Positions 24,559 through 49,429 of a stretch of 64,000 nucleotides of DNA are shown piece after piece (the stretch's first letter is position 1; the number at the start of each line of letters is the position of its first letter). This DNA is from Virgibacillus necropolis. Lineage in GTDB: Bacteria; Bacillota; Bacilli; Bacillales; Amphibacillaceae. The stretch is from positions 930,001 through 994,000 of the forward strand of contig NZ_CP022437.1 of assembly GCF_002224365.1 (NCBI RefSeq). The letters are read 5' to 3'. A program made the position numbers and the translations under genes. Under the pieces are notes generated by a model. The model was not told where the DNA came from and ran no database searches. It saw only the letters and a list, made by a program, of their open reading frames with translations.

Positions 24559-25800
24559 ATGTTAAAAAAGTATTTAAGTTTATTGTTAATCGTTGCGCTT
24601 TTTGGAATTCTAGCAGCATGTGGAAATGATTCTGAAAAGTCATCAAGTTCAGTTACATTAGATGTTCAATATTATACAGAGGCAATTAGTGATGGTGCTA
24701 TTGAAGCAGCAAAAGAAGAATTCTCAGATTACACATTAAATTTCACTGAAGTACCAGCAGATGATACTTATGATGTAAAACTTAGAACAAGTTTAGATTC
24801 TGATTCAGCTCCAGATATTGTAACAATCAATTCTAACATACAAGAATTCCTGCCATATGCAGATAAATTTGTGAATTTCCTTGATTATGATGTAGAAAGT
24901 CTGGCAGAAAATTATGTTGAGTGGAAATGGGAATCTGCAAAAACTGCAGATAAAAGTTCAATGATTGCTATGCTGATCGATATAGGGCCTACCGCATTAT
25001 TCTATAGAATTGATTTGTTTGAAAAAGCAGGTCTTCCAACAGACCCACAAGAAGTATCAAATACAATTGTTACATCTGAAGATTATATGGAAGCAGCTAA
25101 AACATTATCAGAAGAAATTGACAAACCAATGTTCTTATCAGCTGTAGCATTACTTGGTGAAGAATACCGTAAGTTAAATTCTAGTATGTACAACAAAGAA
25201 GGCGAACTTACATTAGCAGATGGAAAATTAAAAGAAATTTGGGATTACACTGTGAAAGCAGTTAATGAAGGATATACATTAGGAACTAGAGCTAATACAA
25301 TCGATAACGTTGTAGCACAAAATAAAGGTTTATATGGGGCATATATTGGTGCCTCTTGGGGCGTTCTTGACGTGAAAGATGCTAAGGAAACGAAAGGAAA
25401 GTGGAGAATTGCTAAAGCACCAGGTGGTTATTCAAACCAAGGTGGTTCCTATTTAGCAGTTTTAGGAAACTCTGATCATCCTGAAGAAGCTGTGGAAGTA
25501 GTAAAATACTTAACTAATTTTGATAGTCAATTAGCTAACTTAACTGAAAACAGTTTATTCCCATCTCATCAAGAAGTATATGATACAGAAGCAATGGTTA
25601 ATAAAGATGAATGGTTTGGTGGTCAAAATATCAATGAATATTTCATTGAAGCTGCAGAAAATATTGAATATGTATACAGAGACCCTCGTGATTCAGCAGC
25701 ATTTACTATTTTTACTGATGAAATTCACTTGGTTGAATCACAAAATAAAGATCCAGAAGAAGCATGGAATGACGCTGTGAAAAAAGCTGAGCAACTGTAA
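24559..25800 (+). CDS. ABC transporter sugar-binding lipoprotein (family 1)
   Basis: Extracellular solute-binding protein of 413 aa anchored by lipid. The signal peptide MLKKYLSLLLIVALFGILAA ends in the lipobox LAAC-G, with the cysteine at about residue 21. The mature part has the family 1 (MalE-like) layout with a DSDSAPDIVTINSN hinge segment. A TTG codon directly precedes the ATG; either suits the AGGAGG site. It should deliver oligosaccharides to the two permeases encoded downstream; the alpha-mannosidases in the same cluster point to manno-oligosaccharides (inference). Confidence 0.9.
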   Translation: MLKKYLSLLLIVALFGILAACGNDSEKSSSSVTLDVQYYTEAISDGAIEAAKEEFSDYTLNFTEVPADDTYDVKLRTSLDSDSAPDIVTINSNIQEFLPYADKFVNFLDYDVESLAENYVEWKWESAKTADKSSMIAMLIDIGPTALFYRIDLFEKAGLPTDPQEVSNTIVTSEDYMEAAKTLSEEIDKPMFLSAVALLGEEYRKLNSSMYNKEGELTLADGKLKEIWDYTVKAVNEGYTLGTRANTIDNVVAQNKGLYGAYIGASWGVLDVKDAKETKGKWRIAKAPGGYSNQGGSYLAVLGNSDHPEEAVEVVKYLTNFDSQLANLTENSLFPSHQEVYDTEAMVNKDEWFGGQNINEYFIEAAENIEYVYRDPRDSAAFTIFTDEIHLVESQNKDPEEAWNDAVKKAEQL

Positions 25801-25803
25801 GAA

Positions 25804-25838
25804 AATTAGGTGCCAAGGCAATCCTCGGGCACCTAATT
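25804..25838 (+). terminator. Perfect hairpin between binding protein and permease genes
   Basis: An 11-bp perfect stem AATTAGGTGCC/GGCACCTAATT with a 13-nt loop lies 3 bp after the binding-protein stop. No strong T tract follows, so it likely attenuates transcription or protects the 3' end of the binding-protein mRNA, a usual way to make more binding protein than permease. Confidence 0.6.
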
Positions 25839-25931
25839 ACATATTTTAATACTTTAGAATAAGTAAACTAAGCCTTTCGCATTAAGACTACTTCATGCTT
25901 CCTATTTCTAATATTAAGGACGGGTATACTA

Positions 25932-26861
25932 ATGGAGCAAATACAAGACTATAATCAAATTTCAAAAAAAGAAAAGTTAAAAAAATGGTTTGATAAGATT
26001 ACCCCATATATCTTTATTTCCCCATTCTATATATTGTTTGTAGTATTCGGTTTGTTCCCAATCATCTTCTCGGCTATTTTAGCTTTCAATAAATGGGATG
26101 GCATTGGAGATATGGAATTTGTTGGAATGCAAAATTTCAATCGTTTAATACAGGATAGTGAGTTTTGGCTATCTGTATATAACACACTGATTATTTGGAT
26201 TATCGGTACTGCACCGATGATTTTAGCAGCATTAGTTATTGCCTTTTTAATTAATTTAAAAATAATTAAATATAAAAACTTTTACCGCACAACAATGTTC
26301 ATGCCATACGTAACATCTGTTGTTGCTGTAACTATCCTATTTGGATTAGTTTTTTCAAGTTCTTCTGGATTAGCGAACGGTTTATTGCAGTTTTTGGGTT
26401 TTGAACGGATCGATTTTATTAATGATCCTTTCTGGGTGAAACTTGTTATTGCCTCCGTTAATATATGGCAATATATAGGTTATAACATGATTATCTTTTT
26501 CACTGGTTTGCAGCGTATACCCAAAGATTATTATGAAGCAGCAATCATTGATGGAGCGAGCAATTATCAAATCTTCAGTAAAATTACCATACCAATAATT
26601 AAACCAATTATTTTATTTGTTGTCATGATGTCGACCATCGGGGGCATTCAAATATTTACTGAAGCACAAGTTCTGGTGCCAACGAATGCAACTGCTGAAG
26701 GTGGTTCTTTAACGGTTGTTTATTATATGTATAAAATAGCATTTGAAAGAAGTAATTATGGTTACGGAGCAACTGTCTCATGGGGATTGGTTGCGATTAT
26801 AATTATGTTCTCTATTCTAAATTGGTATCTAACGACAAAAAGAATTAAAGGTGAAGAATAA
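25932..26861 (+). CDS. ABC sugar permease, MalF/UgpA type
   Basis: Inner-membrane subunit of a carbohydrate (CUT1) importer, 309 aa with six predicted membrane segments starting at ITPYIFISPFYILFVVFGLFPIIF. The EAA loop that contacts the ATPase is EAAIIDGASNYQIFSKITIPIIKP at about residues 203-226. Its stop overlaps the next permease start by one base (TAATG). No ATPase gene lies in the cluster. Confidence 0.9.
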   Translation: MEQIQDYNQISKKEKLKKWFDKITPYIFISPFYILFVVFGLFPIIFSAILAFNKWDGIGDMEFVGMQNFNRLIQDSEFWLSVYNTLIIWIIGTAPMILAALVIAFLINLKIIKYKNFYRTTMFMPYVTSVVAVTILFGLVFSSSSGLANGLLQFLGFERIDFINDPFWVKLVIASVNIWQYIGYNMIIFFTGLQRIPKDYYEAAIIDGASNYQIFSKITIPIIKPIILFVVMMSTIGGIQIFTEAQVLVPTNATAEGGSLTVVYYMYKIAFERSNYGYGATVSWGLVAIIIMFSILNWYLTTKRIKGEE

Positions 26862-27688
26862 TGAGGAAATTTAATGTATCATCAATCATTATAAGGGGTG
26901 TTTTGCTATTAGGTGTTGCGTTTTCCGCTTTTCCTTTTTATTGGATGATTGTAACGGCCAGCAGAGCTACTACGGAGATTTATTCAGTTCCACCGAAATT
27001 TACGTTAGGTGACGAATTACTTAATAATATTTATACGGTTTTTGAAAGTACAAGTTTTTTTCAATCCTTCTTAAATACATTGTTTATTGCAGTTGTTTCA
27101 ACTACTTTGATTTTATTTTTTGACTCTTTAGCAGGGTACACATTTGCTAAATTAAAATTTAAGGGAAGGCATACATTGTTTGTAATTTTATTATCTACCA
27201 TGATGATTCCAGGGTTATTAAACATTATTCCTCAATTTATTATGATGGATACTATTGGGTGGGTTGGCTCCTATAAAGCATTGATAATACCTGGTATGGT
27301 AAATGCATTTGGTATCTTCTGGATTAAACAATACGCAGAAGGAGCAATACCTAACACTTTATTGGAAGCAGCCAAAATTGATGGCTGTACAACATTTGGT
27401 ATCTACTGGAAAATAGCATTACCTATTTTACGGCCCTCTTTAGCATTTTTAGGATTATTCACATTTATGCAATCATGGAATGATTATATGTGGCCATTGA
27501 TCATCCTGAATGATCCTGAGAAATTTACATTAATGCTTGAATTGACACAGTTACAAGGCTTGTATTTTACAAATTATCCATTAGTTATTACGGGTACACT
27601 TTTAGCGACAATACCTATTTTAATTGTATTCTTCATTTTCAGTAAGCAATTAATGTCCGGAATTACGGAGGGTGCTATTAAGGAATAA
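26861..27688 (+). CDS. ABC sugar permease, MalG/UgpE type
   Basis: Partner permease of 275 aa with six membrane segments and the EAA loop EAAKIDGCTTFGIYWKIALPILRP at about residues 168-191. It forms a heterodimer with the preceding protein, with which it is translationally coupled. A shared multi-operon ATPase of the MsmX type, encoded elsewhere, would be needed for transport. Confidence 0.9.
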   Translation: MRKFNVSSIIIRGVLLLGVAFSAFPFYWMIVTASRATTEIYSVPPKFTLGDELLNNIYTVFESTSFFQSFLNTLFIAVVSTTLILFFDSLAGYTFAKLKFKGRHTLFVILLSTMMIPGLLNIIPQFIMMDTIGWVGSYKALIIPGMVNAFGIFWIKQYAEGAIPNTLLEAAKIDGCTTFGIYWKIALPILRPSLAFLGLFTFMQSWNDYMWPLIILNDPEKFTLMLELTQLQGLYFTNYPLVITGTLLATIPILIVFFIFSKQLMSGITEGAIKE

Positions 27689-27709
27689 TAACAAGGGGAA
27701 TGAAAAATA

Positions 27710-28303
27710 ATGGAAGAAAAAATCATCGAAGGATTAGAGATATTGTGGAATATTTTCGTTTTAAGCCTGCTTGTCATTACATTTTCATTGTTAATTATTT
27801 CTATTGTTCCTTCATTTCTAGCGTGTATTTCAGTTGTAAGGCAATTAAAGGAAAAGAAAGTAAGTAATTTAGATATTAATGTGATTGCTTTCTGGGGAAA
27901 TTTTAAAAGTTATTTTTGGAAAGGTGTCATTGTTCAACTATTTGGAGCAGTTGTGTTAGTAGTTGCTTACATTAATTTTCAGCTAATCATCCAAAGCAAC
28001 AACAGTATTGAAAAGTTTATTGTTATAACTGTTACGATAACATTTTTGATTATAACATTGATGTTCTTATTGAATTTAATGTATGGAATAACTATTAAAC
28101 ATGTGAATGTGAAGCTATTGGAACATAACTTGTTATTGGTGTTTGCTAAATTACCTATAGTGTTATTACTTTCACTTTGTTATTTACTTTTTTTCGTTAC
28201 AGCATTTTTATTACCTCAAGTACTGATTTTAACAGTAGGGTTATTAATCCTAATTCATTATAAGACAGGATCAAAAATATGGGAACAATTTGATCAGGTT
28301 TAA
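27710..28303 (+). CDS. YesL-like DUF624 membrane protein
   Basis: A 197-aa protein with about five hydrophobic segments, of the DUF624 (YesL) family, commonly found beside CUT1-type sugar ABC transporters in Bacillaceae (for example the yes rhamnogalacturonan cluster). Its function is not established. The ribosome site AAGGGGAATG lies before the ATG, 21 bp after the MalG-type permease, so it is in the same operon. An accessory role in transport is the usual guess. Confidence 0.7.
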   Translation: MEEKIIEGLEILWNIFVLSLLVITFSLLIISIVPSFLACISVVRQLKEKKVSNLDINVIAFWGNFKSYFWKGVIVQLFGAVVLVVAYINFQLIIQSNNSIEKFIVITVTITFLIITLMFLLNLMYGITIKHVNVKLLEHNLLLVFAKLPIVLLLSLCYLLFFVTAFLLPQVLILTVGLLILIHYKTGSKIWEQFDQV

Positions 28304-28329: not shown

Positions 28330-31300
28330 ATGTTTTTTACTCTGGAAAAGTTAAGCAGCAGAATAGAAGAATTAGAAAAATACAGGTATATAAACAGACA
28401 AAATATAGAAATTTGGCATTGTAAAGAAGATATTTCCAAAAACGAAAAGTACCCACCTGAAGTTGATTCTTCATGGGGAAAACTGGAAAAAGGTGATCAA
28501 TGGACAGGCAGAGACCGATATTTTTGGCTGAGTACAGAGGTTTCGATACCAAATCCTGATTATGGACGAGTAATTATGCTGTTTGATTTCGGAAAGACAG
28601 ATGGAGGAACAAATTCAGGATTTGAATCATTGCTGTTTATAGATGGGAAACCATATCAAGGGGTAGATGGAAATCATAAAGAAGTATTAATAGGAGAAGA
28701 ATATTACGGCAAGAAAGTAAAGGTTAGTTTGAAATTATGGACCGGGTTAGAAGGCGGAGGCCCACCACAAATTAATAATCATAACTATAAATACAGTGAT
28801 CTGGCTTTTCTGCATCCTGAAGTGGATGATTTATATTTTACAAGTAACATGATTTTAAAAACAGTAAAAATTTTAGATGATAATAACCACGAAAAATGGC
28901 ATTTGCAAAAGATACTGAATGACAGTTATAAACTGATAGACTGGTCTGACCCAGGCAATGAAGTGTTTTATTATTCATGTATAGAAGCAAATAAACAACT
29001 CCAAAGCGATTTAGATAAATTAAATAAACACACACCTGTAACAGTAACGGCAATCGGTCACACACATATTGATGTAGCATGGCTCTGGCGCTTGAAACAT
29101 ACGAGAGAAAAATCTGCAAGATCTTTTTCTACGGTTTTAAGGTTAATGGAACAATATCCAGATTATTATTTCCTGCAATCTCAACCACAATTATATGCCT
29201 ATATTAAAGCGGAATATCCAGAAATTTATTCTCAAATAAATAACAGGGTAAAAGATGGGAAATGGGAAATAGATGGTGCAATGTGGCTGGAAGCAGATTG
29301 TAATATATCATCCGGTGAATCTTTAGTTAGGCAAATTTTATATGGTACTAAATTTATGATGGAAGAATTCGGAAAGAAGCCTAAATTTTTATGGTTGCCA
29401 GATGTTTTTGGTTATTCGTGGGCTTTACCGCAAATTTTAAAGAAAACGAATTTAGATACTTTTATGACAACAAAAATAAGCTGGAATCAATACAATCGTA
29501 TGCCTCATGACACTTTCTGGTGGAGAGGAATCGATGGAAGTGAAGTGCTGACCCACTTTATATCAACACCTGAACCAGAAGATTATGGTACTGATTCGTT
29601 CTTTTACACATACAATGGCGTAATTGAACCCAAGACAGTAAAAGGAACATATGATAATTACGTTGATAAGGATATCAATCATGAGTTATTGCTTGCCTAT
29701 GGCCATGGCGATGGTGGTGGTGGTGTTAATCGTGAAATGCTAGAAAACCGCAGACGTTTAGATAAAATACCAGGGTTGCCAAATGTGAAAACAGGCAGTG
29801 CAAATGAATACTTTGATAATTTGCATAACACGATTATGAATTCCAATAATTATGTGCATACCTGGGATGGAGAATTATACCTTGAATACCATCGGGGCAC
29901 GTATACATCTCAAGCCTTTATGAAAAAGACAAATAGAAAATTAGAACAAGATTTTAGAGAAACAGAGTTTTTGAATACTTGGGCAACTATAGATAATAAA
30001 GACTTGGCTTATCCAAAGGATGTGTTTTTACATGGATGGCACATTCTGTTAAGAAATCAATTTCACGATATCATTCCAGGAACTTCGATTAAGGAAGTGT
30101 ATGAAGACTCAAAAATAGAATATCAAGAAGCATCTGATTTGATTACTGAAATTAATGATACTTGGGAGAAGACAGCGCTAACGAATGACGAAAACACGTG
30201 GTCAGTTATCAATAGTGCTACTTGGGACCGAGATGAAATCGTTCATATTCTGGAAGAAAATCCTAATTTACAATTTAAGGATGAATCAGGAAAATTATTA
30301 GAAGCCACTAAAGTGTCTGATGGCTATAAAGTATTTGTATCTGATATTCCAAGTTTAGGTTATAAAACAATCAAGAGTGTTGAAGAAATTCCAAATCATG
30401 CTAATCAATTGGAATTCATACAGAAAGACAATCGTATAGAAACACCTTTTTATATAGTTAGCTGGAATGGAAAAGGCCAGTTAGATGCCATTTATGATAA
30501 AAAAAATGATCGTCAAATATTAGCTGAAAATCGAAATGGTAATGTGTTTCAATTATTTGAGGATAAACCAATGAATTTTGATGCGTGGGATATCGATATA
30601 TATTATCAAGATAAATATAAAGAATTAGAAGCTGAAATTATTTCTGTAAAAGAAAAAAATTCACTATTTATTGAAGTTGAATTTTCTTATAATTTTGGCC
30701 AATCTACCTTAACGCAAAGTATGATTCTGTATAAGGATTCTAAACGAATTGATTTTAATACAAAAGTTGATTGGCATGAACGTCAACAATTACTGAAAGC
30801 TGCCTTCCCGGTAAACATAAGAGCTACTGAGGCAACTTATGATATTCAATTTGGAAATGTAAAAAGACCAACTCACTGGAATACTAGTTGGGATATGGCG
30901 AAATTTGAGAGTGTAGCACATCAATGGGTTGATCTATCAGAATATAAATCTGGCATAAGTTTATTAAATGATTGTAAGTACGGACACGATGTTAAAGATA
31001 ATGTATTACGCCTTACCCTGCTTAAGGGGCCTACTTTTCCGGATCCAGATGCTGATATTGGATATCACGAATTTACTTATAGTTTGTATCCGCATCAAGG
31101 TGATTTTATTACGGGAGAGACAGTTCAAGCTGCATGGGAATTAAATAATCCCCTTCATGTATGTAAAGGAAAAATGGATTCCAGCATGGAACAATTATTG
31201 GAAATATCAGGTGAACCTAATATTCTAATTGATGCAATCAAACAACCTGAAGGACATACAAATGGTATGTTGATACGTTTCCATGATTACTCTGGGGGAA

Positions 31301-31452
31301 CACAGAAGTTTTCACTAAAACCAAATTTTGCTTTCAAATCATGGATGGAAACAAACTTGCTTGAAGAGGAGACAGGCAGTAAAGAAATCGCTCAAAGAAT
31401 ATCAATAGAATTAAAGCCATATGAAATTAAAACAATCCTGATTGAGCAATAA
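28330..31452 (+). CDS. GH38 alpha-mannosidase, large cytosolic (MAN2C1-like) type
   Basis: Retaining alpha-mannosidase of 1040 aa. It has an N-terminal extension of about 235 residues ahead of the catalytic barrel, the architecture of class II cytosolic enzymes (MAN2C1, yeast Ams1). Motifs: AIGHTHIDVAWLWRLKHTREKSARSF (zinc and substrate binding), nucleophile Asp358 in WLPDVFGYSWALPQIL, and LRNQFHDIIPGTSIKEVYED. No signal peptide is seen. It is unlike the 871-aa MngB-type enzyme at 18155, so the genome carries two GH38 subtypes. It should trim imported alpha-mannosides from the non-reducing end, complementing the GH125 enzyme at 42687. Confidence 0.92.
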   Translation: MFFTLEKLSSRIEELEKYRYINRQNIEIWHCKEDISKNEKYPPEVDSSWGKLEKGDQWTGRDRYFWLSTEVSIPNPDYGRVIMLFDFGKTDGGTNSGFESLLFIDGKPYQGVDGNHKEVLIGEEYYGKKVKVSLKLWTGLEGGGPPQINNHNYKYSDLAFLHPEVDDLYFTSNMILKTVKILDDNNHEKWHLQKILNDSYKLIDWSDPGNEVFYYSCIEANKQLQSDLDKLNKHTPVTVTAIGHTHIDVAWLWRLKHTREKSARSFSTVLRLMEQYPDYYFLQSQPQLYAYIKAEYPEIYSQINNRVKDGKWEIDGAMWLEADCNISSGESLVRQILYGTKFMMEEFGKKPKFLWLPDVFGYSWALPQILKKTNLDTFMTTKISWNQYNRMPHDTFWWRGIDGSEVLTHFISTPEPEDYGTDSFFYTYNGVIEPKTVKGTYDNYVDKDINHELLLAYGHGDGGGGVNREMLENRRRLDKIPGLPNVKTGSANEYFDNLHNTIMNSNNYVHTWDGELYLEYHRGTYTSQAFMKKTNRKLEQDFRETEFLNTWATIDNKDLAYPKDVFLHGWHILLRNQFHDIIPGTSIKEVYEDSKIEYQEASDLITEINDTWEKTALTNDENTWSVINSATWDRDEIVHILEENPNLQFKDESGKLLEATKVSDGYKVFVSDIPSLGYKTIKSVEEIPNHANQLEFIQKDNRIETPFYIVSWNGKGQLDAIYDKKNDRQILAENRNGNVFQLFEDKPMNFDAWDIDIYYQDKYKELEAEIISVKEKNSLFIEVEFSYNFGQSTLTQSMILYKDSKRIDFNTKVDWHERQQLLKAAFPVNIRATEATYDIQFGNVKRPTHWNTSWDMAKFESVAHQWVDLSEYKSGISLLNDCKYGHDVKDNVLRLTLLKGPTFPDPDADIGYHEFTYSLYPHQGDFITGETVQAAWELNNPLHVCKGKMDSSMEQLLEISGEPNILIDAIKQPEGHTNGMLIRFHDYSGGTQKFSLKPNFAFKSWMETNLLEEETGSKEIAQRISIELKPYEIKTILIEQ

Positions 31453-38192: not shown

Positions 38193-38286
38193 CTTATTTA
38201 TGTGAAACAAACCTTCTTCTATAAAAGATTTCTATTATTAGATTAACAGTGGATCTCAGTTAAATAATAGAAAAGGAGCTTTGATA

Positions 38287-39963: not shown

Positions 39964-40009
39964 AGTTTATTAGTTTATGTATTCGGAATTTACTAGGATG
40001 GTGATTGAT

Positions 40010-41011
40010 ATGAAGGTAGACTACCATTTGCACCTTGAAGAAGGTCCATATAGTGTGAGTTTTCTAAATAACACTTATCGGGCTATTCAATACTTTTATC
40101 CAGTTGATACCGCTCATCAAGGCACAAAAGAAGGAATGAATGAAAATATTGCACTGTTAAGTGAGCGGTTTAAGCATACGGAGTTTTCAGAGTGGTGGCT
40201 TGAATTATATTTAGAAGAAGCATTGCGAAAGGGTTTAAAAGAAGTTGGAATTGTCGATCACCTCTATCGCTTCAGAGACACGAGAGACTATTTTTTAAAG
40301 TATATCGACGTAGATTCAAAAGAAATAGGTGAACAACAATTAGATTGGCTTAACAAAGTAATGGTTAGAGATTTGCATGAATTCGTTGACATGATTCAAT
40401 CCCAGAAAAATCGCTGGAGGAAAAAGGGGATTGAGTTGCGCTTAGGTATGGAAGCAGATTATTTTGAAGGTGGAGAAGAAGAATTACAAAAATTATTGGA
40501 AGGATACCCATTTGATTATGTAATTGGTTCAGTACACTTTTTAAAAGGATGGGGCTTCGATAACCCACAATTACAACATAGATTTAAAAATTATAATTTG
40601 GTAGAAATATATGAAAAACATTTTAATACCATCATAAAAGCTGCTAAAAGTAAATTGTTCGATTTTCTTGCCCACTTAGATAATCTCAAAGTGTTTAATT
40701 ACCGTCCAGATGAATCGCAATTGGCAGGAATATATGAAAAAGTAGCAAAAACACTTGCAGAACACGATGTAGCTACGGAAGTAAATCCAGGTTTATATTA
40801 CAGATATCCTGTAAAAGAAATGTGCCCAAGTCCAAGATTCATGGAAATATTGGTGAAACATGGTGTGAAATTTACTACTTCTTCTGATTCCCATTTTCCA
40901 GACCAAATAGGTATATATAATGAAGAAATTCAGGAATTGTTACGTTCAAATGGCATTAATAACCTAGTTACCTTTGAAAATCGAAAAAGAATTATGAAAC
41001 CATTTTTGTAA
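40010..41011 (+). CDS. PHP-domain phosphatase (histidinol-phosphatase-like)
   Basis: A 333-aa PHP-fold metal-dependent phosphoesterase: DYHLHLEEGPYS (H-x-H), EVGIVDHLYRF, LRLGMEADYFEG, VIGSVHFLKGWG, FLAHLDNLK and TTSSDSHFPDQIG contain the usual histidine/aspartate metal ligands. I chose the ATG at 40010 with GGTGA upstream; an earlier in-frame ATG (39977) adds eleven unlikely residues. HisK-type relatives remove phosphate from histidinol-phosphate, but no his genes are near, and many PHP proteins are general sugar-phosphate phosphatases or phosphodiesterases. Confidence 0.85.
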   Translation: MKVDYHLHLEEGPYSVSFLNNTYRAIQYFYPVDTAHQGTKEGMNENIALLSERFKHTEFSEWWLELYLEEALRKGLKEVGIVDHLYRFRDTRDYFLKYIDVDSKEIGEQQLDWLNKVMVRDLHEFVDMIQSQKNRWRKKGIELRLGMEADYFEGGEEELQKLLEGYPFDYVIGSVHFLKGWGFDNPQLQHRFKNYNLVEIYEKHFNTIIKAAKSKLFDFLAHLDNLKVFNYRPDESQLAGIYEKVAKTLAEHDVATEVNPGLYYRYPVKEMCPSPRFMEILVKHGVKFTTSSDSHFPDQIGIYNEEIQELLRSNGINNLVTFENRKRIMKPFL

Positions 41012-41027: not shown

Positions 41028-42686
41028 ATGAAATTGTTTTGTTTTAGTTCATTAGAAAAGGTATTTTTAGATGGCCCAGTTCATGGAGTCGAACAACCAC
41101 AGGGATCTTGTTTGTTGGGAGAGAAATATGCAATACAAATTGCATTTTATGTGGATAAGGTAAACACTCCGATCCAGTTAGATCTGAAGACAGAACTACA
41201 GGAACAAATTAATGTATATAAGGTAGAACATGTTCCCTCAGAATTACCGAATGGTGAGGGACACGACCAGGATATTATTACTGGTAAACCTGGTTTATTT
41301 CCAGATGTACTTCAATCAAGCAGATTACCGGTTCAGTTTTCCAGATTAAAAACGGATGTCTGGTATTCTTTTTGGATAGAATTTGAAACTGCAAACCCTA
41401 AATTAAGCGGGACTCATGATATTTTGTTCACACTAGATTATGAAAACAAATATGGAAAACAAATCACATCTAGAACGTTCCAGTTGGAAGTAATTGCCAA
41501 GAAGTTACCTAAGAGTACTATTAAGCACACAGAATGGATTCATACGGATTGTTTAATGAATTATTATCAAATAGAAGCATTCAGTGATGAATATTGGGAG
41601 CTTGTTGATAAATATATTAGTATGGCAGTGGTTCATAGTCAAAATATGATGCTTACACCAATATTTACACCCCCAATTGATACGAACATAGGTGGGGAAA
41701 GACGGACTGTGCAACTTGTGGATATAAAAAAGAACAGTGATGAATATGAATTTGATTTTACAAACTTGCAAAAATGGAGCGATATTTGTAAAAAAAATAA
41801 TGTTCAATATTTAGAAATCATTCATTTATTTACGCAATGGGGGGCTAAATCTACACCTAAAATAGAGGTTACAGTTGACGAAGAAAAAGTGAACTTTTTT
41901 GGGTGGGAGACCGCTTCAGCATCGAAAGAATATATTTTGTTTTTACAGCAATTTATTCCATCATTAATAGAATGGTTAAAGGAAAATGAATGGGATAATA
42001 ATGTTTATTTCCATATCTCTGATGAACCATCAATAGATGATATTGAACATTATCAAGAAGCTAGTAATTGTGTAAGAAAATTGGTAAAAGGTTATCCAAT
42101 TATAGATGCGATGTCAGACTATTATTTATATAAAAAAGGATTAGTGGATATTCCGGTTGTCGCAAATAACCAAATAAGAATTTTTCTCGATAATAAGACG
42201 TCACCTCTGTGGACCTACTATTGTGGTGCACATAATTATAAAGTATCCAATAGATTTTTCGATATGCCATCCTATCGAAATAGAATTCTTGGTTATCAAT
42301 TATTTAAATATAATATTGATGGTTTTCTGCATTGGGGCTATAACTTCTGGAATACACAGTATTCAAAAAAGGCTATTAACCCCTATGAAATTACTGATGC
42401 AGAGGTCAGCTTTCCTTCGGGTGATAGTTTTGTAGTATATCCAGGCGAGAAGGGACCTCTTCCTTCTTTGCGGTTAAAAGTAATAAATGAGGCTTTTCAA
42501 GATTTTCGAGCAATGCAAGCAATAGAAAATATTTATGGAAGAAATGCAGTCGATGAATTGATAGAGAAGTATTTACCAAACTTAAGTTTTGATGAGTATC
42601 CCAAAAATCAAAAATACATTTTTTCAATAAGAGAACATATAAACAAGTTAATTAAAGACAGCATGAAAACGGAGTGTGGAAAGTAG
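41028..42686 (+). CDS. DUF4091 protein, glycoside-hydrolase-like (GH123-related architecture)
   Basis: A 552-aa protein with an N-terminal beta-rich domain (about 1-165) and a TIM-barrel-like region ending in the DUF4091 signature: VYFHISDEPSIDDIEHYQ (a DEP acidic motif), GFLHWGYNFWNTQYS, FPSGDSFVVYPGEKGPLPSLRLK and EAFQDFRAM. Proteins with this ending include GH123-type N-acetyl-hexosaminidases. The D-E pair would be the catalytic candidate. No signal peptide, so the substrate would be an imported oligosaccharide; a hexosaminidase would suit the chitobiose or GlcN part of a glycan core (inference). It abuts the GH125 gene with no gap. Confidence 0.78.
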   Translation: MKLFCFSSLEKVFLDGPVHGVEQPQGSCLLGEKYAIQIAFYVDKVNTPIQLDLKTELQEQINVYKVEHVPSELPNGEGHDQDIITGKPGLFPDVLQSSRLPVQFSRLKTDVWYSFWIEFETANPKLSGTHDILFTLDYENKYGKQITSRTFQLEVIAKKLPKSTIKHTEWIHTDCLMNYYQIEAFSDEYWELVDKYISMAVVHSQNMMLTPIFTPPIDTNIGGERRTVQLVDIKKNSDEYEFDFTNLQKWSDICKKNNVQYLEIIHLFTQWGAKSTPKIEVTVDEEKVNFFGWETASASKEYILFLQQFIPSLIEWLKENEWDNNVYFHISDEPSIDDIEHYQEASNCVRKLVKGYPIIDAMSDYYLYKKGLVDIPVVANNQIRIFLDNKTSPLWTYYCGAHNYKVSNRFFDMPSYRNRILGYQLFKYNIDGFLHWGYNFWNTQYSKKAINPYEITDAEVSFPSGDSFVVYPGEKGPLPSLRLKVINEAFQDFRAMQAIENIYGRNAVDELIEKYLPNLSFDEYPKNQKYIFSIREHINKLIKDSMKTECGK

Positions 42687-43955
42687 ATGTATGAAGGAGT
42701 ATTAAAAGCAGCAAATGATATCGTTCAACAACAAATTGCAGATGAAAAAGTACGGAATATGTTTCAAAAATGCTTTGGGGACATGTTAAGGAATTCAATT
42801 AAAGAGCTGGATGATGGGAGTATTTTTGTTGTAACTGGAGATATACCGGCGATGTGGCTGCGCGATTCCACCTGCCAATTACGGCCATTTATGATATTTG
42901 CAGGTCAATTTGAAGATCTTGACGCTTTAATTGTAAGTACTATTAACAAACAGATGTCTTTAATATTAACTGATCCTTACGCAAATGCTTTCAATGCGGA
43001 GCCGAATGGAAATAGATGGGATGATGATATTCCTTTACAAAAGCCAGAAATATGGGAACGAAAATACGAGATTGACTCACTTTGTTTTCCATTTCAGCTA
43101 GCCTATCAATATTGGAAATATACTGGTCAGGTAGAAATTTTTGATGATACTTTAAAAAAAGCAATGGAAACTGTTATTTCGGTATGGAGAACAGAGCAGG
43201 ATCATGAAAATAAATCTGATTATCGTTTTCAAAGACCAGGTACCGAAGACTTACCTAATAACGGTTTAGGCTCTAATGTGGGGTATACTGGAATGACCTG
43301 GTCGGGCTTTAGACCAAGTGATGATGCATGTAATTACCATTTTTTAATATCAAGTAATTTGTTTGCTATTAGAATCCTGGAAATTATGGAAGAAATTGCG
43401 GAAAAAGTTTATCGTGATTCAATACTTTCAACAAATGCAAATCAATTGGCAAATGAAATAGCAGATGGTGTACAAAAATATGGAATTGTGACCATTGATA
43501 AAAGCACACAAATATATGCTTATGAGGTTGATGGACTGGGAAACCATATTTTAATGGATGACAGTAATATACCAAGTTTATTGTCACTGCCATTGCTTAC
43601 TAATATTTCGAAAGATGATGGAATTTATCAAGCAACCCGGGATTATATCTTGAGTAATTTGAATCCATATTATTACAAAGGGCAATTTGCAGAAGGAATT
43701 GGAAGTCCACATACACCTAATCAGCAAGTATGGCCAATTGCTATATCAGTAGAAGGTTTAACAGCCATTGAAGACAATGAAAAATGGGGAAAAATAAAAT
43801 TGATTAGTGAAAATGATGCAGGTACCAATCTTGTGCATGAGTCTTTTCATGTGGATAACCCTGATTTATTTACCCGTGAATGGTTTTCATGGGCAAATTC
43901 TATGTTTTGTGAGTTAGTGCTAGATTTTTGTGGATATAAAATAAAATATAAATAA
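42687..43955 (+). CDS. GH125 exo-alpha-1,6-mannosidase
   Basis: Metal-independent inverting alpha-mannosidase of 422 aa (GH125, formerly DUF1237). Clear family blocks are TGDIPAMWLRDSTCQLRPFM, FNAEPNGNRWDDD, WERKYEIDSLCFPFQLAY, NVGYTGMTWSGFRPSDDA, MDDSNIPSLLSLPLL, the GSPHTPNQQVWPIAISVEGL region, and VHESFHVDNPDLFTREWFSWANSMF. Characterised members release alpha-1,6-linked mannose. The start codon directly follows the stop of the DUF4091 gene. With the GH38 enzyme at 28330 it gives the cell both alpha-1,2/1,3 and alpha-1,6 trimming in the cytosol. Confidence 0.93.
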   Translation: MYEGVLKAANDIVQQQIADEKVRNMFQKCFGDMLRNSIKELDDGSIFVVTGDIPAMWLRDSTCQLRPFMIFAGQFEDLDALIVSTINKQMSLILTDPYANAFNAEPNGNRWDDDIPLQKPEIWERKYEIDSLCFPFQLAYQYWKYTGQVEIFDDTLKKAMETVISVWRTEQDHENKSDYRFQRPGTEDLPNNGLGSNVGYTGMTWSGFRPSDDACNYHFLISSNLFAIRILEIMEEIAEKVYRDSILSTNANQLANEIADGVQKYGIVTIDKSTQIYAYEVDGLGNHILMDDSNIPSLLSLPLLTNISKDDGIYQATRDYILSNLNPYYYKGQFAEGIGSPHTPNQQVWPIAISVEGLTAIEDNEKWGKIKLISENDAGTNLVHESFHVDNPDLFTREWFSWANSMFCELVLDFCGYKIKYK

Positions 43956-44114: not shown

Positions 44115-45590
44115 TTGGCAGAAGTTAAAACTGAGGCAAGAAAGATAAAAAATTATATTAATGGAGAATGGGTAGAAAGTAAAACAACAAAGTACGAGGT
44201 TGTTTATAATCCAGCAACAAAAGAAGAAATTGCACAGGTACCCCTTTCAACAAAAGAAGAAGTGGACTATGCTGCAGAAGTTGCAAAAAAAGCATTTGAA
44301 GAATGGAAAAACGTACCTGTTCAAAAACGAGCGAGAATTCTATTTAACTATCAGCAATTATTACAAAATAATAAAGAGGAATTGGCTCGTCTGATTACAA
44401 TTGAAAACGGTAAAAATACAACAGAAGCATTAGGTGAAGTTGGACGTGGAATTGAAAATGTTGAATTTGCGGCCGGTGCTCCAACATTAATGATGGGCGA
44501 CTCATTAACTAATATTGCAACAGATATGGAAGCAACAAACTATCGCTACCCAATCGGAGTTGTTGGGGGTATTACTCCATTTAACTTCCCAATGATGGTA
44601 CCTTGCTGGATGTTTCCAATGGCTATTGCAATGGGGAACTCATTTATTCTGAAGCCATCAGAAAAGACCCCATTATTAACGGAGAAATTGGCTGACCTAC
44701 TAGAAGAAGCAGGACTTCCTAAAGGTGTATTTAGTGTGGTTTATGGTGCACATGATGTTGTAAATGGTATTCTTGATCACCCTGAAATTAAAGCTATTTC
44801 ATTTGTTGGCTCAAAACCAGTTGGTGAATATGTTTACAAACGTGGCAGTGAAAACCTGAAACGTGTTCAAGCACTTACCGGTGCAAAAAACCACACAACT
44901 GTATTAAATGATGCAGATTTGGATGATGCTGTTAAAGACATTATCGCTTCTGCATTTGGTTCAGCTGGAGAGCGCTGCATGGCATGTGCTGTTGTAACAG
45001 TTGAAGACGGTGTTGCAGATGAATTTATTGCAATGCTTAAAGGAGCGGCAGATAACTTGAAAATGGGTAACGGTTTAGATGACGGCGTATTCCTCGGACC
45101 TGTTATTCGTGAAGATAATCAAAAACGTACACTGGAATATATTGAAAAAGGTGTTCAGGAAGGTGCTAACCTGGTACGAGACGGTCGTAAAGAAAAAATG
45201 GACAATGGATACTTTGTTGGACCAACCATCTTTGAAGGTGTAAAAACAGATATGACAATTTGGAAAGATGAAATTTTTGCTCCAGTACTTTCAGTAGTAC
45301 GTGTTAGTAATCTAAAAGAAGCGGTTGAAGTTGCCAATCAATCTGAATTCGCAAACGGTGCTTGTCTATTCACATCTAATGCTTCGTCAATCCGTTACTT
45401 TCGTGAAAATATTGATGCAGGTATGATTGGTGTTAACTTAGGGGTTCCAGCACCAATGGCGTTCTTCCCATTCTCTGGCTGGAAATCTTCATTTTTCGGT
45501 ACTTTACATGCAAATGGTAAAGATGGTGTTGATTTCTATACGCGTAAGAAAGTAGTAACTGCTCGTTATAAAACACCAGATTTTAAATAA
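44115..45590 (+). CDS. iolA: Methylmalonate-semialdehyde dehydrogenase (IolA/MmsA)
   Basis: CoA-acylating aldehyde dehydrogenase of 491 aa that converts malonate semialdehyde (from myo-inositol) to acetyl-CoA or methylmalonate semialdehyde to propionyl-CoA. It shows [31 protein letters not shown] and the catalytic cysteine in [13 protein letters not shown]. The TTG start follows AGGGAGGAAT by five bases. It is the first of four iol genes on the + strand, 159 bp after the GH125 gene; I see no clear terminator or strong promoter in that gap, so transcription may continue from the mannoside genes. Confidence 0.94.
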
Positions 45591-45665
45591 GTAATAGGTT
45601 TGAACGATTTAGGAATAAGGGGTTCGCCTTTTGTTCCAAAAAGTAATACATGGGGGGATTTTTTT

Positions 45666-46484
45666 ATGAGTAAACTGCTCCGCAAACCAAAACGGGAAGA
45701 GGTTTCTGAAGGCATAACACTTGTACATGAAGTGTCAAAGCAAAATTCAGATTTAAAATATGTAGGCTTTAGAGTAATTGATCTTGTTAAAGGCGCAAAA
45801 TATGTAGAGTCTTTGGTTAAAGAAGAATGCTGTATTGTTGCATTAACTGGAAGGATTAATGTAACAGAAGGTGAAACTTCTTTTAAGGATTTAGGTACAC
45901 GGGATAGTGTTTTTGAAAGGAAACCAACCGATAGTGTATATGTTTCTAATGATCTCACCTTTGAAGTAGAAGCAGTAACTGATGCAAGAATAGTTCTTTG
46001 CTATTCTCCTTCTGAAAATCAATTACCTACTAAACTAATTAAAGCTGAAGAAAATAGTATCGAAAATAGAGGTGAATATAGCAATAAGCGTTTGGTTCAT
46101 AATATCCTTCCAGACTCAGATTCTACTGCTAATAGTTTGCTGGTTGTAGAGGTATTCACTGAAACCGGCAACTGGTCCAGTTATCCACCACATAAACATG
46201 ATCAGGATAATCTACCGGAAGAATCATTCCTCGAGGAAAGCTATTATCACCAAATGGATCCGCCACAAGGATTTGTGTTCCAGCGTGTGTATACAGATGA
46301 TCGGTCGCTGGATGAAACAATGAATGTTGAAAACGGAGATGTTGTCCTAGTACCAAAAGGTTATCATCCAGTAGGAGTGCCTGATGGATATAGCTCTTAT
46401 TATTTAAATGTAATGGCAGGACCAGAAAGAATTTGGAAATTCCATAATGATAAGGATCATGAATGGATACTGGATCGTAAATAG
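45666..46484 (+). CDS. iolB: 5-deoxy-glucuronate isomerase (IolB)
   Basis: Bicupin enzyme of 272 aa converting 5-deoxy-glucuronate to 5-dehydro-2-deoxy-gluconate (2-deoxy-5-keto-gluconate) in inositol breakdown. Key blocks are YPPHKHDQDN and EESYYHQMDPPQGFVFQRVYTDD with the metal ligands, and DVVLVPKGYHPVGVPDGY. I chose ATG 45666 (MSKLLRKPKREEV) with GGGGGGA nine bases upstream; the longer frame from 45600 lacks a ribosome site. It lies 75 bp after iolA. Confidence 0.94.
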   Translation: MSKLLRKPKREEVSEGITLVHEVSKQNSDLKYVGFRVIDLVKGAKYVESLVKEECCIVALTGRINVTEGETSFKDLGTRDSVFERKPTDSVYVSNDLTFEVEAVTDARIVLCYSPSENQLPTKLIKAEENSIENRGEYSNKRLVHNILPDSDSTANSLLVVEVFTETGNWSSYPPHKHDQDNLPEESFLEESYYHQMDPPQGFVFQRVYTDDRSLDETMNVENGDVVLVPKGYHPVGVPDGYSSYYLNVMAGPERIWKFHNDKDHEWILDRK

Positions 46485-46504
46485 TTGTGAGGGGTGTTAA
46501 CCAG

Positions 46505-47494
46505 ATGGGTTTTAAATTCAATAATGACAGAATATACGATATTATCGCAATCGGCCGTGCATGTATTGACCTAAATGCAGCTGAATACAATCGCCCGATG
46601 GAGGAAACTATGACATTTTCAAAATATGTTGGTGGTTCCCCAGCTAATATAGCAATTGGTTGCTCCAAGCTAGGCTTAAAGGTAGGGTTTATCGGTAAAA
46701 TACCAGATGATCAGCATGGGAATTTCATTAAGAAGTATATGGCTGATGCTGGGATTAATACTTCTAATATGGTCATTGATAAAGAGGGACATAAAGCAGG
46801 ACTTACATTTACAGAAATTAAAAGTCCGGAAGAGTGCAGTATTTTGATGTACCGTGAAAAAGCAGCAGATCTATACTTAAATCCTAGTGAAGTGCATGAG
46901 GAATATATTAAGCAAGCAAAAGTATTACTTGTCTCCGGAACCGCATTGGCACAAAGTCCTTCTAGGGAAGCTGCAATCAAAGCAGTTGGACTTGCAAGGA
47001 AAAATGATGTGAAGGTGATATTTGAATTGGATTATCGTCCTTACACATGGAAATCCAAGGAGGAGACCGCTGTCTATTACTCGTTAATCGCAGAGCAGGC
47101 TGATATCGTTATTGGAACACGTGATGAGTATGACACGATGGAAAACCTGGAAGAAGGTATGGGTGAAAACCAGAAGTCGGTAAATTTTCTGTTCAAACAT
47201 CGCCCAGGGTTATTAGTAATTAAGCATGGTGTTGAAGGTTCGTACGCTTATACAAGAGCGGGAGATGTATTCAGAGGCCATGCATATAAATCAAGAGTCT
47301 TGAAAACCTTTGGTGCGGGTGATTCCTATGCTTCTGCTCTCTTGTATGCGCTAATCCGTGGCAAAGATATCGAAACTGCATTAAAGTTCGGCAGTGCATC
47401 AGCTGCTATTGTTGTTAGCAAGCATAGCTCTTCAGAAGCAATGCCTACTGTTGATGAAATTGAGCAATTGATTTCAGAGAACGAAAAAAAGTAA
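46505..47494 (+). CDS. iolC: 5-dehydro-2-deoxygluconokinase (IolC)
   Basis: PfkB-family sugar kinase of 329 aa that phosphorylates 2-deoxy-5-keto-gluconate. It has VGGSPANIAIGCSKLGLKVGFIG near the N terminus and the catalytic TFGAGDSYASALLYALIRG near the C terminus. The ATG at 46505 is eight bases after AGGGGTG; the GTG at 46487 belongs to that ribosome site. It starts 20 bp after iolB and is followed by iolD. Confidence 0.93.
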   Translation: MGFKFNNDRIYDIIAIGRACIDLNAAEYNRPMEETMTFSKYVGGSPANIAIGCSKLGLKVGFIGKIPDDQHGNFIKKYMADAGINTSNMVIDKEGHKAGLTFTEIKSPEECSILMYREKAADLYLNPSEVHEEYIKQAKVLLVSGTALAQSPSREAAIKAVGLARKNDVKVIFELDYRPYTWKSKEETAVYYSLIAEQADIVIGTRDEYDTMENLEEGMGENQKSVNFLFKHRPGLLVIKHGVEGSYAYTRAGDVFRGHAYKSRVLKTFGAGDSYASALLYALIRGKDIETALKFGSASAAIVVSKHSSSEAMPTVDEIEQLISENEKK

Positions 47495-47515
47495 TGGGGA
47501 AGGTCGGGTTATCAT

Positions 47516-49429
47516 ATGGGAAATAAAATCAAATTAACAACCGCCCAGGCTCTGGTAAAATTTTTAAATCAGCAATATATCTATATCGATGGAGAGGAAT
47601 TCCCGTTTGTGGAAGGTGTATTCAGTATTTTTGGACATGGAAATGTTCTTGGGATTGGTCAGGCACTTGAACAGGATTCCGGCCATTTAAAATTGTTTCA
47701 GGGAAAAAATGAACAAGGTATGGCTCATGCGGCTATTGCCTACAGCAAACAAAAACTTCGTCGTAAAATTTACGCTGTAACTACTTCAGTTGGACCTGGT
47801 TCTGCCAATCTTGTGGCAGCTGCTGGAACAGCTTTGGTAAATAATATTCCAGTGTTATTTTTACCTGGTGACACGTTTGCAACGAGACATCCTGACCCGG
47901 TATTACAGCAGGTAGAACATGAACATAGTGCAGCGATAACAACAAATGATGCACTTCAGCCTGTATCGAGATACTGGGATCGTGTTACTCGTCCAGAACA
48001 GCTGATGTCAAGTTTGATTCGTGCATTCGAAGTAATGACAGATCCTGGGAAGGCTGGCCCTGCTACAATTTGTATTTCTCAGGACGTAGAGGGAGAAGCA
48101 TACGATTACGATGAGCCTTTCTTTGCAAAAAGGGTCCACTATCTTGATCGTGAAACTCCAGTGGTAAGAGAATTAACTGGTGCTGCTGAATTAATTAAAG
48201 CAAGTAAAAAACCTGTCATTATAGTTGGTGGCGGAGCGAAATACTCCGGTGCACGTGAAGTTTTAATGGATCTTTCCGAGAAACACAATATTCCATTAGT
48301 GGAGACCCAGGCCGGAAAAGCTACGGTTGAGTCAGCCTTTAAAAATAATCTGGGTGGTATAGGAGTTACTGGAACTTTATCAGCAAATAAAGCGGCTAAA
48401 CAGGCTGATTTAATTATTGGTCTTGGTACAAGATACACTGACTTTGCTACTTCTTCCAAAACTGCATTCGATTTTGACTCGACTAAATTCCTTAATATAA
48501 ATGTCAGTCGTATGCAAACATATAAATTAGATGCCTTTCAAGTTGTTGCAGATGCTAAAGTGACACTTGAACAGATTGCAACACTGCTTGAGGGATATAC
48601 AACAGAGTTTGGTGAAGCTATTTCGGATTTAAAAGAGGAATGGTTAACTGAACGTAATCGATTAGCGAATATTACATTTAAACGAGATGGTTTCACTCCT
48701 GAGGTTCAGGAACATTTTTCCCAGGAAGTATTAAATGAATATGCAGATAGACTGGAGTCTGAATTTGCTCAAACGACAGCGCTTCTTACAATCAACGAGA
48801 CAATCGCTCCTGATAGCAATGTTGTTACATCTGCAGGCTCGCTTCCAGGGGATATGCAGCGGATTTGGAATTCAGGCAAACCTAATACGTATAATGTGGA
48901 ATACGGATATTCCTGTATGGGATATGAAATTTCCGGAGCTTTAGGTGTTAAACTGGCTGACCCTAAAAGTGAGGTTTATTCATTTGTTGGGGATGGAAGT
49001 TTCCTTATGCTGCACTCTGAATTGATTACAGCACTCCAGTATAATCAAAAGATTAACATTCTATTATTTGATAATTCGGGATTTGGATGTATTAATAATT
49101 TACAGATGGGAAATGGAAGCAAAAGTTTCTTAACCGAATTCAGAACCAATGACAACAAAGTGTTGAATGTTGATTATGCAAAAGTAGCTGAAGGATATGG
49201 AGCTAAGGTATATCGTGCAAATACAGTTGACGAATTAAAAGCAGCCTTAAAGGATGCGGAAAAGCAGGAAGTCTCCACTCTAATTGAAATAAAAGTATTG
49301 CCCAAGACAATGACTGAAGGCTATGAAAGCTGGTGGAATGTCGGGGTTGCTGAGGTTTCGGAAAATGAGAATGTCCAAAAGGCCTATAAAGAAATTACGA
49401 AAATGAGAAAAAAAGCAAAACAATACTAA
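47516..49429 (+). CDS. iolD: 3D-(3,5/4)-trihydroxycyclohexane-1,2-dione hydrolase (IolD)
   Basis: TPP-dependent ring-opening enzyme of inositol catabolism, 637 aa, with acetolactate-synthase-like domains. It shows FQGKNEQGMAHAAIAYSKQ (catalytic Glu), TSVGPGSANLVAAAGTAL, FLPGDTFATRHPDPVLQQVEH, and the TPP site FVGDGSFLMLHSELITA followed by DNSGFGCINNLQ. It makes 5-deoxy-glucuronate, the IolB substrate. Only iolA-B-C-D are here. iolG, iolE, iolJ, iolR and an inositol permease are absent from the window, and the sequence after iolD is a pseudogene region. Confidence 0.94.
   Translation: MGNKIKLTTAQALVKFLNQQYIYIDGEEFPFVEGVFSIFGHGNVLGIGQALEQDSGHLKLFQGKNEQGMAHAAIAYSKQKLRRKIYAVTTSVGPGSANLVAAAGTALVNNIPVLFLPGDTFATRHPDPVLQQVEHEHSAAITTNDALQPVSRYWDRVTRPEQLMSSLIRAFEVMTDPGKAGPATICISQDVEGEAYDYDEPFFAKRVHYLDRETPVVRELTGAAELIKASKKPVIIVGGGAKYSGAREVLMDLSEKHNIPLVETQAGKATVESAFKNNLGGIGVTGTLSANKAAKQADLIIGLGTRYTDFATSSKTAFDFDSTKFLNINVSRMQTYKLDAFQVVADAKVTLEQIATLLEGYTTEFGEAISDLKEEWLTERNRLANITFKRDGFTPEVQEHFSQEVLNEYADRLESEFAQTTALLTINETIAPDSNVVTSAGSLPGDMQRIWNSGKPNTYNVEYGYSCMGYEISGALGVKLADPKSEVYSFVGDGSFLMLHSELITALQYNQKINILLFDNSGFGCINNLQMGNGSKSFLTEFRTNDNKVLNVDYAKVAEGYGAKVYRANTVDELKAALKDAEKQEVSTLIEIKVLPKTMTEGYESWWNVGVAEVSENENVQKAYKEITKMRKKAKQY

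Follow-up and report, generated by a model that had tools for sequence, protein, structure and literature searches.

Gene content of the locus

The subject of this study is a run of catabolic genes in Virgibacillus necropolis, considered here as a candidate locus for the degradation of a glycosyl-inositol phosphate. It occupies positions 24556-49429 of the window, by which we mean the whole analysed stretch of 64,000 nucleotides (930001-994000 of a one-contig genome of 4.34 Mb). The run comprises 21 genes, all on the + strand:

24556..25800, +, substrate-binding lipoprotein (SBP) of an ATP-binding cassette (ABC) importer (SBP_bac_8, E 6.6e-20; lipobox present)
25932..26861, +, ABC permease 1 (BPD_transp_1)
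26861..27688, +, ABC permease 2 (BPD_transp_1; 66-79% among relatives whose importer is of the locus type)
27710..28303, +, DUF624 membrane protein (PF04854; recurs next to the importer in relatives)
28330..31452, +, glycoside hydrolase (GH) family 38 alpha-mannosidase (four GH38 domains; within the locus in relatives too)
31658..33676, +, PRD-type regulator controlled by the phosphotransferase system (PTS) (HTH_11, PRD, PTS_IIB, PTS_EIIA_2)
33689..34006, +, PTS EIIA, Lac type (PF02255, E 7.2e-31)
34006..34341, +, PTS EIIB (PF02302)
34364..35671, +, PTS EIIC, lactose/cellobiose family (PF02378; TIGR00410 180 bits, below the cut-off of 236)
35691..36644, +, aldo-keto reductase (AKR) (PF00248, E 9.2e-56)
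36666..37451, +, IolE-like TIM barrel (AP_endonuc_2-like; 29.1 bits, below the Pfam cut-off of 31.1; fold clear)
37500..38192, +, MgtC-family membrane protein (PF02308, E 1.8e-39)
38281..39150, ATG at 38287, +, calcineurin-like phosphodiesterase (MPE) (PF00149)
39178..39963, +, EEP phosphatase, mannosyl-6-phosphatase-like (PF03372; 4c1r, 4.5e-41)
39977..41011, ATG at 40010, +, PHP phosphatase of the histidinol-phosphatase kind (PF02811; PRK06740, 494 bits)
41028..42686, +, GH123 beta-N-acetylgalactosaminidase-like protein (GH123_cat PF13320, E 8.5e-104; 8k2l, 5.9e-156)
42687..43955, +, GH125 alpha-1,6-mannosidase (PF06824, E 4.6e-145)
44115..45590, +, iolA (Aldedh, E 2.5e-157; orthologs of 76-81% in iol clusters)
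45600..46484, +, iolB (KduI/IolB, PF04962)
46487..47494, +, iolC (PfkB)
47516..49429, +, iolD (TIGR04377, 888.7 bits versus a cut-off of 715)

The three phosphoesterase genes are separated by gaps of 27 and 13 bp, GH123 and GH125 by 0 bp, and GH125 and iolA by 159 bp. A preliminary description of this DNA had reported a co-directional + strand run whose catalytic proteins lack signal peptides, and both points were confirmed, the first by open reading frames and family searches and the second by eye, as no N-terminal signal sequence was seen. All the families that it listed were recovered, but the MgtC gene (37500), between the barrel and the phosphoesterases, had been missed. Its 'DUF4091' protein is glycosidase-like as stated and is better named GH123_cat (PF13320), a relative of beta-N-acetylgalactosaminidases (beta-GalNAcases). 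The barrel that it placed in the IolE/IolI superfamily has the clear fold of that group but is not a close IolE, scoring 24.5 bits against the IolE model TIGR04379, for which the cut-off is 290.

Recurrence in related genomes

Versions of the locus were found in Bacillaceae, Vagococcus, Enterococcus and Streptococcus. In Neobacillus niacini AT2.8 the whole window set is present in another order, with the addition of GH2, ROK and a LamG-calcineurin protein. In the direction of transcription, the genes there run iolA-B-C-D, EEP (34%), MgtC, MPE (63%), PHP (62%), GH125 (63%), SBP, two permeases, DUF624, GH38 (64%), PRD regulator, EIIA-B-C, AKR (66%), IolE-like (72%), the LamG-calcineurin protein, a PHP-like protein, GH123 (45%), ROK and GH2. 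By eye, the LamG-calcineurin and PHP-like proteins carry an N-terminal signal; the latter was also assigned by eye, with no Pfam match. Bacillus sp. FJAT-27245 holds, on one strand, GntR (by eye), SIS, class II aldolase, PfkB, ManA, PHP (57%), MgtC, GH38 (53%), a ROK regulator, GH123 (45%), ROK, a CehA-like PHP, a different ABC importer, MPE (35%), a second GH38 (53%), EEP (48%), AKR (53%), IolE-like (41%), iolB, iolC, iolA, iolD and ROK. Judged by family, its SIS, aldolase and PfkB genes are probably of the kind used in GalNAc catabolism.

In Enterococcus sp. MJM12 the order, read 3' to 5', is GH125, GNAT, iron-containing alcohol dehydrogenase (Fe-ADH), iolD-C-B, C1-type peptidase, GH38, YitT, EIIC-B-A, PRD regulator, importer, IolE-like and AKR; these genes share a strand, and MPE is divergent. 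Streptococcus cuniculi WM131 has AKR, IolE-like, importer, PRD regulator, EIIA-B-C, YitT, GH38, iolB, iolC, iolD, Fe-ADH and EEP (30%); the largest gap in this run is 64 bp, GH38 overlaps iolB, and MPE is again divergent. Vagococcus allomyrinae has MPE, GH2, GH123, importer, GH38, GH125, PRD regulator, EIIA-B-C, AKR and IolE-like, with its iol cluster elsewhere. Orthologs of the SBP share 69-70% in Neobacillus and G233 and 49-58% in Vagococcus, Enterococcus, Streptococcus and Lapidilactobacillus.

The expectation that iol genes would be neighbours in relatives was borne out, iolBCD being joined to GH38, PTS, AKR and IolE-like genes in Enterococcus and S. cuniculi. Conservation of the phosphoesterases with the mannosidases, which had been set beforehand as a test, was found in part: MPE, PHP, EEP, GH125/GH38 and iolABCD occur together in Neobacillus and, reordered and without GH125, in FJAT-27245. 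This outcome holds for relatives carrying the importer or the AKR/IolE-like pair. By our own definition, a system for the glycan of glycosylphosphatidylinositol (GPI) would combine in one neighbourhood genes directed at inositol, alpha-mannose, beta-GalNAc and phosphoesters; the window, Neobacillus and FJAT-27245 have this combination. The earlier suggestion of a phosphorylated alpha-mannoside, possibly with inositol, as substrate is thereby supported, as far as gene linkage in relatives can indicate.

Some further genes were seen at these loci. In S. cuniculi and Enterococcus an Fe-ADH follows iolD (L165 10564-11730 and L154 11654-12808) and no iolA was seen in those loci; the enzyme maybe reduces malonate semialdehyde during fermentation. 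Past the IolE-like gene of Vagococcus, behind a divergent regulator, are GH4, a glucosamine-6-phosphate isomerase-type gene and a second Lac-type EIIC (L161 9841-13352). A PIG-L-type deacetylase near the G233 locus (L043 17627-18340) was not counted, as it stands beside an ABC importer and NamZ cluster.

Inositol genes and the AKR/IolE-like pair

The window iolABCD genes share 73-81% identity with those of Neobacillus and G233. Among ten genomes searched, to which FJAT-27245 (G911) was added afterwards, six contain iolD: it is inside the locus in the window's own genome (G000), G899, G900 and G904, and in a separate cluster in G233 and G901. Exactly these last two hold iolE above the cut-off, and likewise only they hold iolG. 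The best scores in the window's own genome fall short of both models (iolE 58.5 versus 290 bits, iolG 173.2 versus 355 bits). In FJAT-27245 iolD lies within the locus and the sole TIGR04379 match of the genome (2.4e-6) is the locus barrel itself; this search covered iolE, not iolG. Canonical iolE was thus found in none of five genomes with iolD in the locus versus both of those with iolD elsewhere. The five without it all have an AKR/IolE-like pair in the locus.

With the window excluded, iolD lies in the locus in four of the six genomes having both iolD and the locus. Random placement of iolD within 30 kb on either side would give this with a probability of about 7e-7, shared descent being ignored; leaving out Neobacillus and FJAT-27245, which had been chosen with their iol genes already visible, the figures are two of four and about 0.002, shared descent again ignored. 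The neighbourhood of iol and mannosidase genes is not due to chance.

The AKR gene adjoins the IolE-like gene in every examined locus holding both. The best sequence match of the barrel in the PDB is 8bvk (7.8e-15), with the entry title 'O-glycoside cleaving beta-eliminase from A. tumefaciens AtOGE'. The fold of the barrel model (pLDDT 93) ranks nearest to the Art22 isomerase (Z 26.1), followed by AL1, a 3-keto-beta-glucopyranoside-1,2-lyase (25.8), BT1 (24.7) and IolE (23.6 and 23.4); Z is 22.1 to 8bvk and 25.8 to 8tcd. In an alignment of barrels D162, H188 and E233 are invariant (9/9), and the first site, HNHDFE in the barrels of FJAT-27245 and L020, reads H[NC]PEYD in the other seven of nine. 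We take these residues and the first-site positions to be metal ligands. Six of the seven H[NC]PEYD genomes have a PTS in the locus, the seventh (G880) having a reduced locus; as a speculation, this form of the site may mark a PTS-phosphorylated substrate.

The pair could also be read as stand-ins for IolG and IolE acting on free inositol, with mannoside and inositol as co-regulated but chemically separate diets. This we regard as possible though somewhat doubtful. It would agree with iolD lying in the locus in G000, G899, G900 and G904, where canonical iolE and iolG were not found, and in FJAT-27245 (iolE only being searched), and with the high place of IolE in the fold ranking. However, in G233 and G901 the locus still includes the pair even though each genome has a complete iol cluster, iolE and iolG included, at another site, which argues against mere replacement. 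In addition, the pair comes directly after EIIC in four genomes and in the same run as the PTS genes in three more, and by sequence the barrel is nearest to a glycoside beta-eliminase. For LgdB1, a protein annotated as 'sugar phosphate isomerase', cleavage of a C-O glycosidic bond by beta-elimination has been shown (PMC7676230). The barrel shares its superfamily with AtOGE, the AL1/BT1 3-keto-glucoside lyases and the levoglucosan system LgdA-B1-B2-C, and it is nearest to this group by sequence. Unlike in those oxidation/elimination pathways, an AKR replaces the usual dehydrogenase, and the ketone would be formed on the inositol side with the product passing to IolD. In the open-licence literature searched, nothing on point was found for mannosyl-6-phosphatase, for 8TCD or for an AKR with inosose dehydratase.

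Phosphoesterases

The EEP protein matches 4c1r, a PDB chain named mannosyl-6-phosphatase, at E 4.5e-41 (the top row, 3mpr, is apparently the same protein), with the GDFN and SDHFP motifs aligned and located. We assume that 4c1r derives from Bacteroides thetaiotaomicron and that these motifs are catalytic, and the EEP is predicted to be a mannosyl-6-phosphatase relative. The PHP protein passes the histidinol-phosphatase-type NCBIfam model PRK06740 (494 versus 442 bits). For MPE a PDB sequence search gave no match at E 0.01; its model (pLDDT 89.8) is nearest by fold to Lmo2642 (Z 24.2) and to the glycerophosphodiesterase GpdQ (Z 24.1), which it resembles in fold but not in sequence (root-mean-square deviation 2.6 over 234 residues, 15% identity).

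A profile scan of the genome collection, made from an alignment of MPE with nine relatives, gave at least 595 stretches and at least 540 relatives, of which the best 80 were kept, representing 79 loci. Within about 10 kb and at E < 1e-10, these 79 loci contain GH38 in 6, GH125 in 3, GH123 in 2, AKR in 8, IolE-like in 5, PHP in 7, EEP in 2 and iolD in 2. MPE was also found in a separate context, beside an ATP-binding ABC gene, permeases, a lipoprotein of about 560-600 aa and often a protein of about 450 aa (L052, L054-L062, L064, L065, L084, L085 and L088; Psychrobacillus, Pontibacillus, Facklamia, Anaerococcus and Staphylococcus). MatE, DeoR and PHP neighbours of such loci were Pfam-confirmed only in L023/L025. 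This context looks like a phosphodiester-uptake system, judging from its genes, and mannosidases are not nearby: GH125 is present in none of five genomes with it versus all seven with the locus-type or a related importer (Salinicoccus, SBP 37%).

An EEP relative occurs in 25 of 159 genomes of the family, the window's own included. Matches occur in 24 genomes besides the window's own, and loci from 20 of these were examined by BLAST against the window proteins; one has MPE (L003) and one a 34% IolE-like gene (L020). The EEP alone was rejected as a mannoside marker, since GH38, GH125 and GH123 were missing from all 20.

The MgtC-family protein recurs beside PHP or MPE genes (the window; L053, L175, L126, L129; the Neobacillus and FJAT-27245 loci), and is perhaps linked to phosphate load.

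Glycosidases

GH125 is a clear family member (PF06824, 484.1 bits versus a cut-off of 23.4), and GH38 has catalytic and C-terminal domains above the cut-off in its four domains. In a tree of GH125 proteins the four from the window, Neobacillus, Salinicoccus and Vagococcus loci are split with 100/100 support from 11 others, among them the second GH125 of the window's own genome; 1 of 500 shuffles was as low, for a single split in an unrooted tree. The GH38 tree, made without the second FJAT-27245 protein, showed no clear group of its eight locus rows (two changes); as many as 33 of 500 shuffles were as low, so there is no clear evidence of specialisation from GH38.

The second GH125 lies at 768-776 kb of the genome (L041), in a GH38/GH38/GH125 locus with GH29-like proteins downstream (by eye). 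This locus is probably for N-glycans and provides an in-genome contrast to the window GH125. The window locus is like the N-glycan loci of Firmicutes in that an ABC importer accompanies cytosolic GH38 and GH125, but differs from them in its GH125, across the 100/100 split, and in the added phosphoesterases and iol genes. It is also like the yeast alpha-mannan loci of B. thetaiotaomicron, where imported fragments of alpha-mannan are processed by GH38, GH125 and phosphatases (PMC10154615). Its EEP is a homolog of 4c1r. Unlike those loci, it has no GH92 and neither of the endo-mannanases of a yeast alpha-mannan polysaccharide utilisation locus (GH76/GH99) among the 20 locus proteins scanned, and it adds ABC and PTS import, GH123, the AKR/IolE-like pair and inositol genes.

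Another reading takes the locus for a system that breaks down yeast phosphomannan or phosphorylated N-glycans, with iolABCD standing next to it without any connection. We consider it quite improbable. GH38, GH125 and phosphatases belong to known yeast-mannan and N-glycan repertoires (PMC10154615), the EEP resembles 4c1r, and an EEP is also found in a second Neobacillus GH125 locus without iol genes (L164). On the other hand, iol genes are inside the locus in four other genomes, GH76, GH99 and GH92 are missing from the scanned proteins, and the genome's second locus, with its GH125 across the split, is the more N-glycan-like.

GH123 is supported by 347.8 bits to GH123_cat (cut-off 23.1) and by its match to the structure 8k2l, a monosaccharide-releasing beta-GalNAcase (5.9e-156), to which the SDEP motif was aligned and located. 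The D-E pair in this motif is presumably catalytic. The entry 8k2l presumably corresponds to NgaP2, an enzyme from Paenibacillus sp. TS12 (PMC11087588). GH123 occurs in 10 of 397 genomes of the order, the window's own included, and MPE, EEP and PHP were found in none of the nine other GH123 loci examined. It is in the locus in four genomes (window, Neobacillus, Vagococcus and FJAT-27245), and in Vagococcus and Neobacillus it is near GH2.

The substrate might instead be another mannosyl-inositol phosphate, namely actinobacterial phosphatidylinositol mannosides or lipomannan, or the head groups of fungal mannosyl-inositol-phosphoceramide, with the same enzymes removing mannose and phosphate and the iol genes consuming inositol. 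GH125, GH38, the phosphoesterases and the iol genes would fit equally, and the S. cuniculi and Enterococcus loci do not contain GH123. Nevertheless, GH123 in four genomes' loci and SIS/aldolase/PfkB in one point to beta-GalNAc, and GH2 in two points to galactose; to our knowledge, phosphatidylinositol mannosides, lipomannan and mannosyl-inositol-phosphoceramide do not carry beta-GalNAc. We hold such a substrate to be unlikely.

Two other regions of the genome contain related genes. A second GH123 (45%) at 802-819 kb (L040) is accompanied by GH2, alpha-L-fucosidase, SIS, amidohydrolase, PfkB and aldolase (by eye), likely a beta-GalNAc glycan locus. In the window itself a separate run at 16165-23281 encodes a PTS EIIA-EIIB protein, GH38 (871 aa), glycerate kinase and mannose-6-phosphate isomerase; it looks like a system for mannosylglycerate use and lies outside the catabolic locus.

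Substrate and proposed pathway

On balance, we favour the view that all these genes form a single locus for the breakdown of a glycosyl-inositol phosphate, whose most likely identity is the glycan of free GPI or of GPI anchors. We infer the activities, the substrate and the order of the steps from the observed gene content, its reordered recurrence, the absence of canonical iolE and the family and fold assignments. According to PMC7125958, mammalian GPI is EtNP-6Man-alpha2-Man-alpha6-(EtNP)2Man-alpha4-GlcN-alpha6-myoIno-P-lipid (EtNP, ethanolamine phosphate; Man, mannose; GlcN, glucosamine; Ino, inositol). In the same source the first mannose bears at its position 4 a beta-GalNAc that can be lengthened with beta1-3 galactose and sialic acid, and PGAP5/MPPE1 is listed as the EtNP phosphodiesterase. 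Mannose, beta-GalNAc, phosphate and inositol together fit the components of animal GPI glycan, a mapping made from composition. Among the substrates named in the preliminary description, GPI glycan cores, fungal mannosyl-inositol-phosphate (inositol-phosphoceramide) head groups and yeast phosphomannan, the first is favoured and the other two are disfavoured by the GH123 beta-GalNAcase relative. The GH2 gene near GH123 fits the beta1-3 galactose extension of the GPI GalNAc.

In the proposed pathway, a soluble glycan whose lipid and protein had been removed elsewhere would be imported by the ABC system. The phosphoesterases MPE, EEP and PHP would together take ethanolamine-phosphate and phosphate off mannose and inositol, MPE cleaving the EtNP diesters and EEP removing the mannose-6-phosphate left after it. 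GH123 would take off the beta-GalNAc side chain (and GH2 the galactose in Vagococcus and Neobacillus), GH125 the alpha-1,6 mannose and GH38 the other alpha-mannoses. As an alternative entry, a glycosyl-inositol could be imported and phosphorylated by the Lac-type PTS. The AKR would then oxidise the inositol ring of the remaining glycosyl-inositol and the IolE-like barrel would split or dehydrate it, the resulting diketone being converted by IolD, B, C and A to central metabolites.

We tentatively suggest, as a possibility well short of probable, that the GlcN-inositol bond is cut from its inositol side, the AKR oxidising C2 and the barrel beta-eliminating the sugar from C6 to give the substrate of IolD. 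If the lyase product is directly the IolD substrate, IolG and IolE would not be needed. As we derive it from cyclitol nomenclature, loss of the C6 substituent from D-myo-inositol, the site of GlcN in GPI, would give the 3D-(3,5/4) diketone used by IolD, and loss from C4 would give its mirror image. Cleavage from the sugar side, through a 3-keto intermediate made by the AKR and the barrel, was ranked lower because it would free inositol, and these genomes show no iolE. No glycosidase for the GlcN-inositol bond is apparent among the genes of the locus, to which this statement is confined. The window iolABCD resembles the canonical iolABCDEG operon in these four genes, but the genome has no iolE/iolG above the cut-off, the AKR and IolE-like genes are in the run, and glycosidases are joined to it.

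Several observations weigh against the GPI reading. No enzyme for GlcN use was found in the window locus. Phosphatidylinositol-specific phospholipase C (PF00388) gave a match in one of 15 genomes, the window's own, and this is a GDPD (151 bits versus 23; FJAT-27245 was outside the search), so release of GPI from membranes is not accounted for. The parts are not obligatorily linked, most MPE loci being without mannosidases, and GH38, GH125 and GH123 were found in 0 of the 20 EEP loci; this limits the conservation of the phosphoesterases with the mannosidases. PHP is inside the locus in three genomes only, and the EEPs of the S. cuniculi and Neobacillus loci are distant relatives (30-34%). At L003 the EEP pairs with MPE beside a glucose-type PTS (EIICB) and antiterminator, without mannosidases, and at L164 (7016-14500) the second Neobacillus EEP (49% to that of the window) is a few genes from an N-glycan-type GH125, with no iol genes. 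Both contexts fit a plainer role in mannose-phosphate or sugar-phosphate use and indicate that the phosphoesterases are not tied to inositol.

Other points are adverse as well. All ten genomes contain lower-scoring matches to the IolG model, and one of these could be an IolG that went unrecognised. In G880, G902, G903 and G905 parts of the locus occur but iolD does not, and of these Streptococcus sp. LYSM12 (G903) and G880 retain the AKR and IolE-like genes. FJAT-27245 lacks GH125 and the PTS in its locus, and G233 has a block of importer, PTS, AKR, IolE-like and MPE with no mannosidases in the stretch examined. The Enterococcus GH125 near the iol genes is one of the 11 others, the absence of a clear locus group in the GH38 tree belongs here as well, and so does the lack of GH123 in the loci of Enterococcus and S. 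cuniculi.

Animals, fungi and protozoa bear GPI anchors and free GPIs on the surface of their cells, and in the open-licence PubMed Central literature searched we found no description of a bacterial degradation pathway for their glycan. If the GPI reading is true, the locus would supply enzymes for GPI analysis, and the proposed cleavage may bring to light a lyase attacking a glycoside at the inositol side. It would also show a route of inositol from glycans into bacteria and explain iol operons without iolE and iolG.

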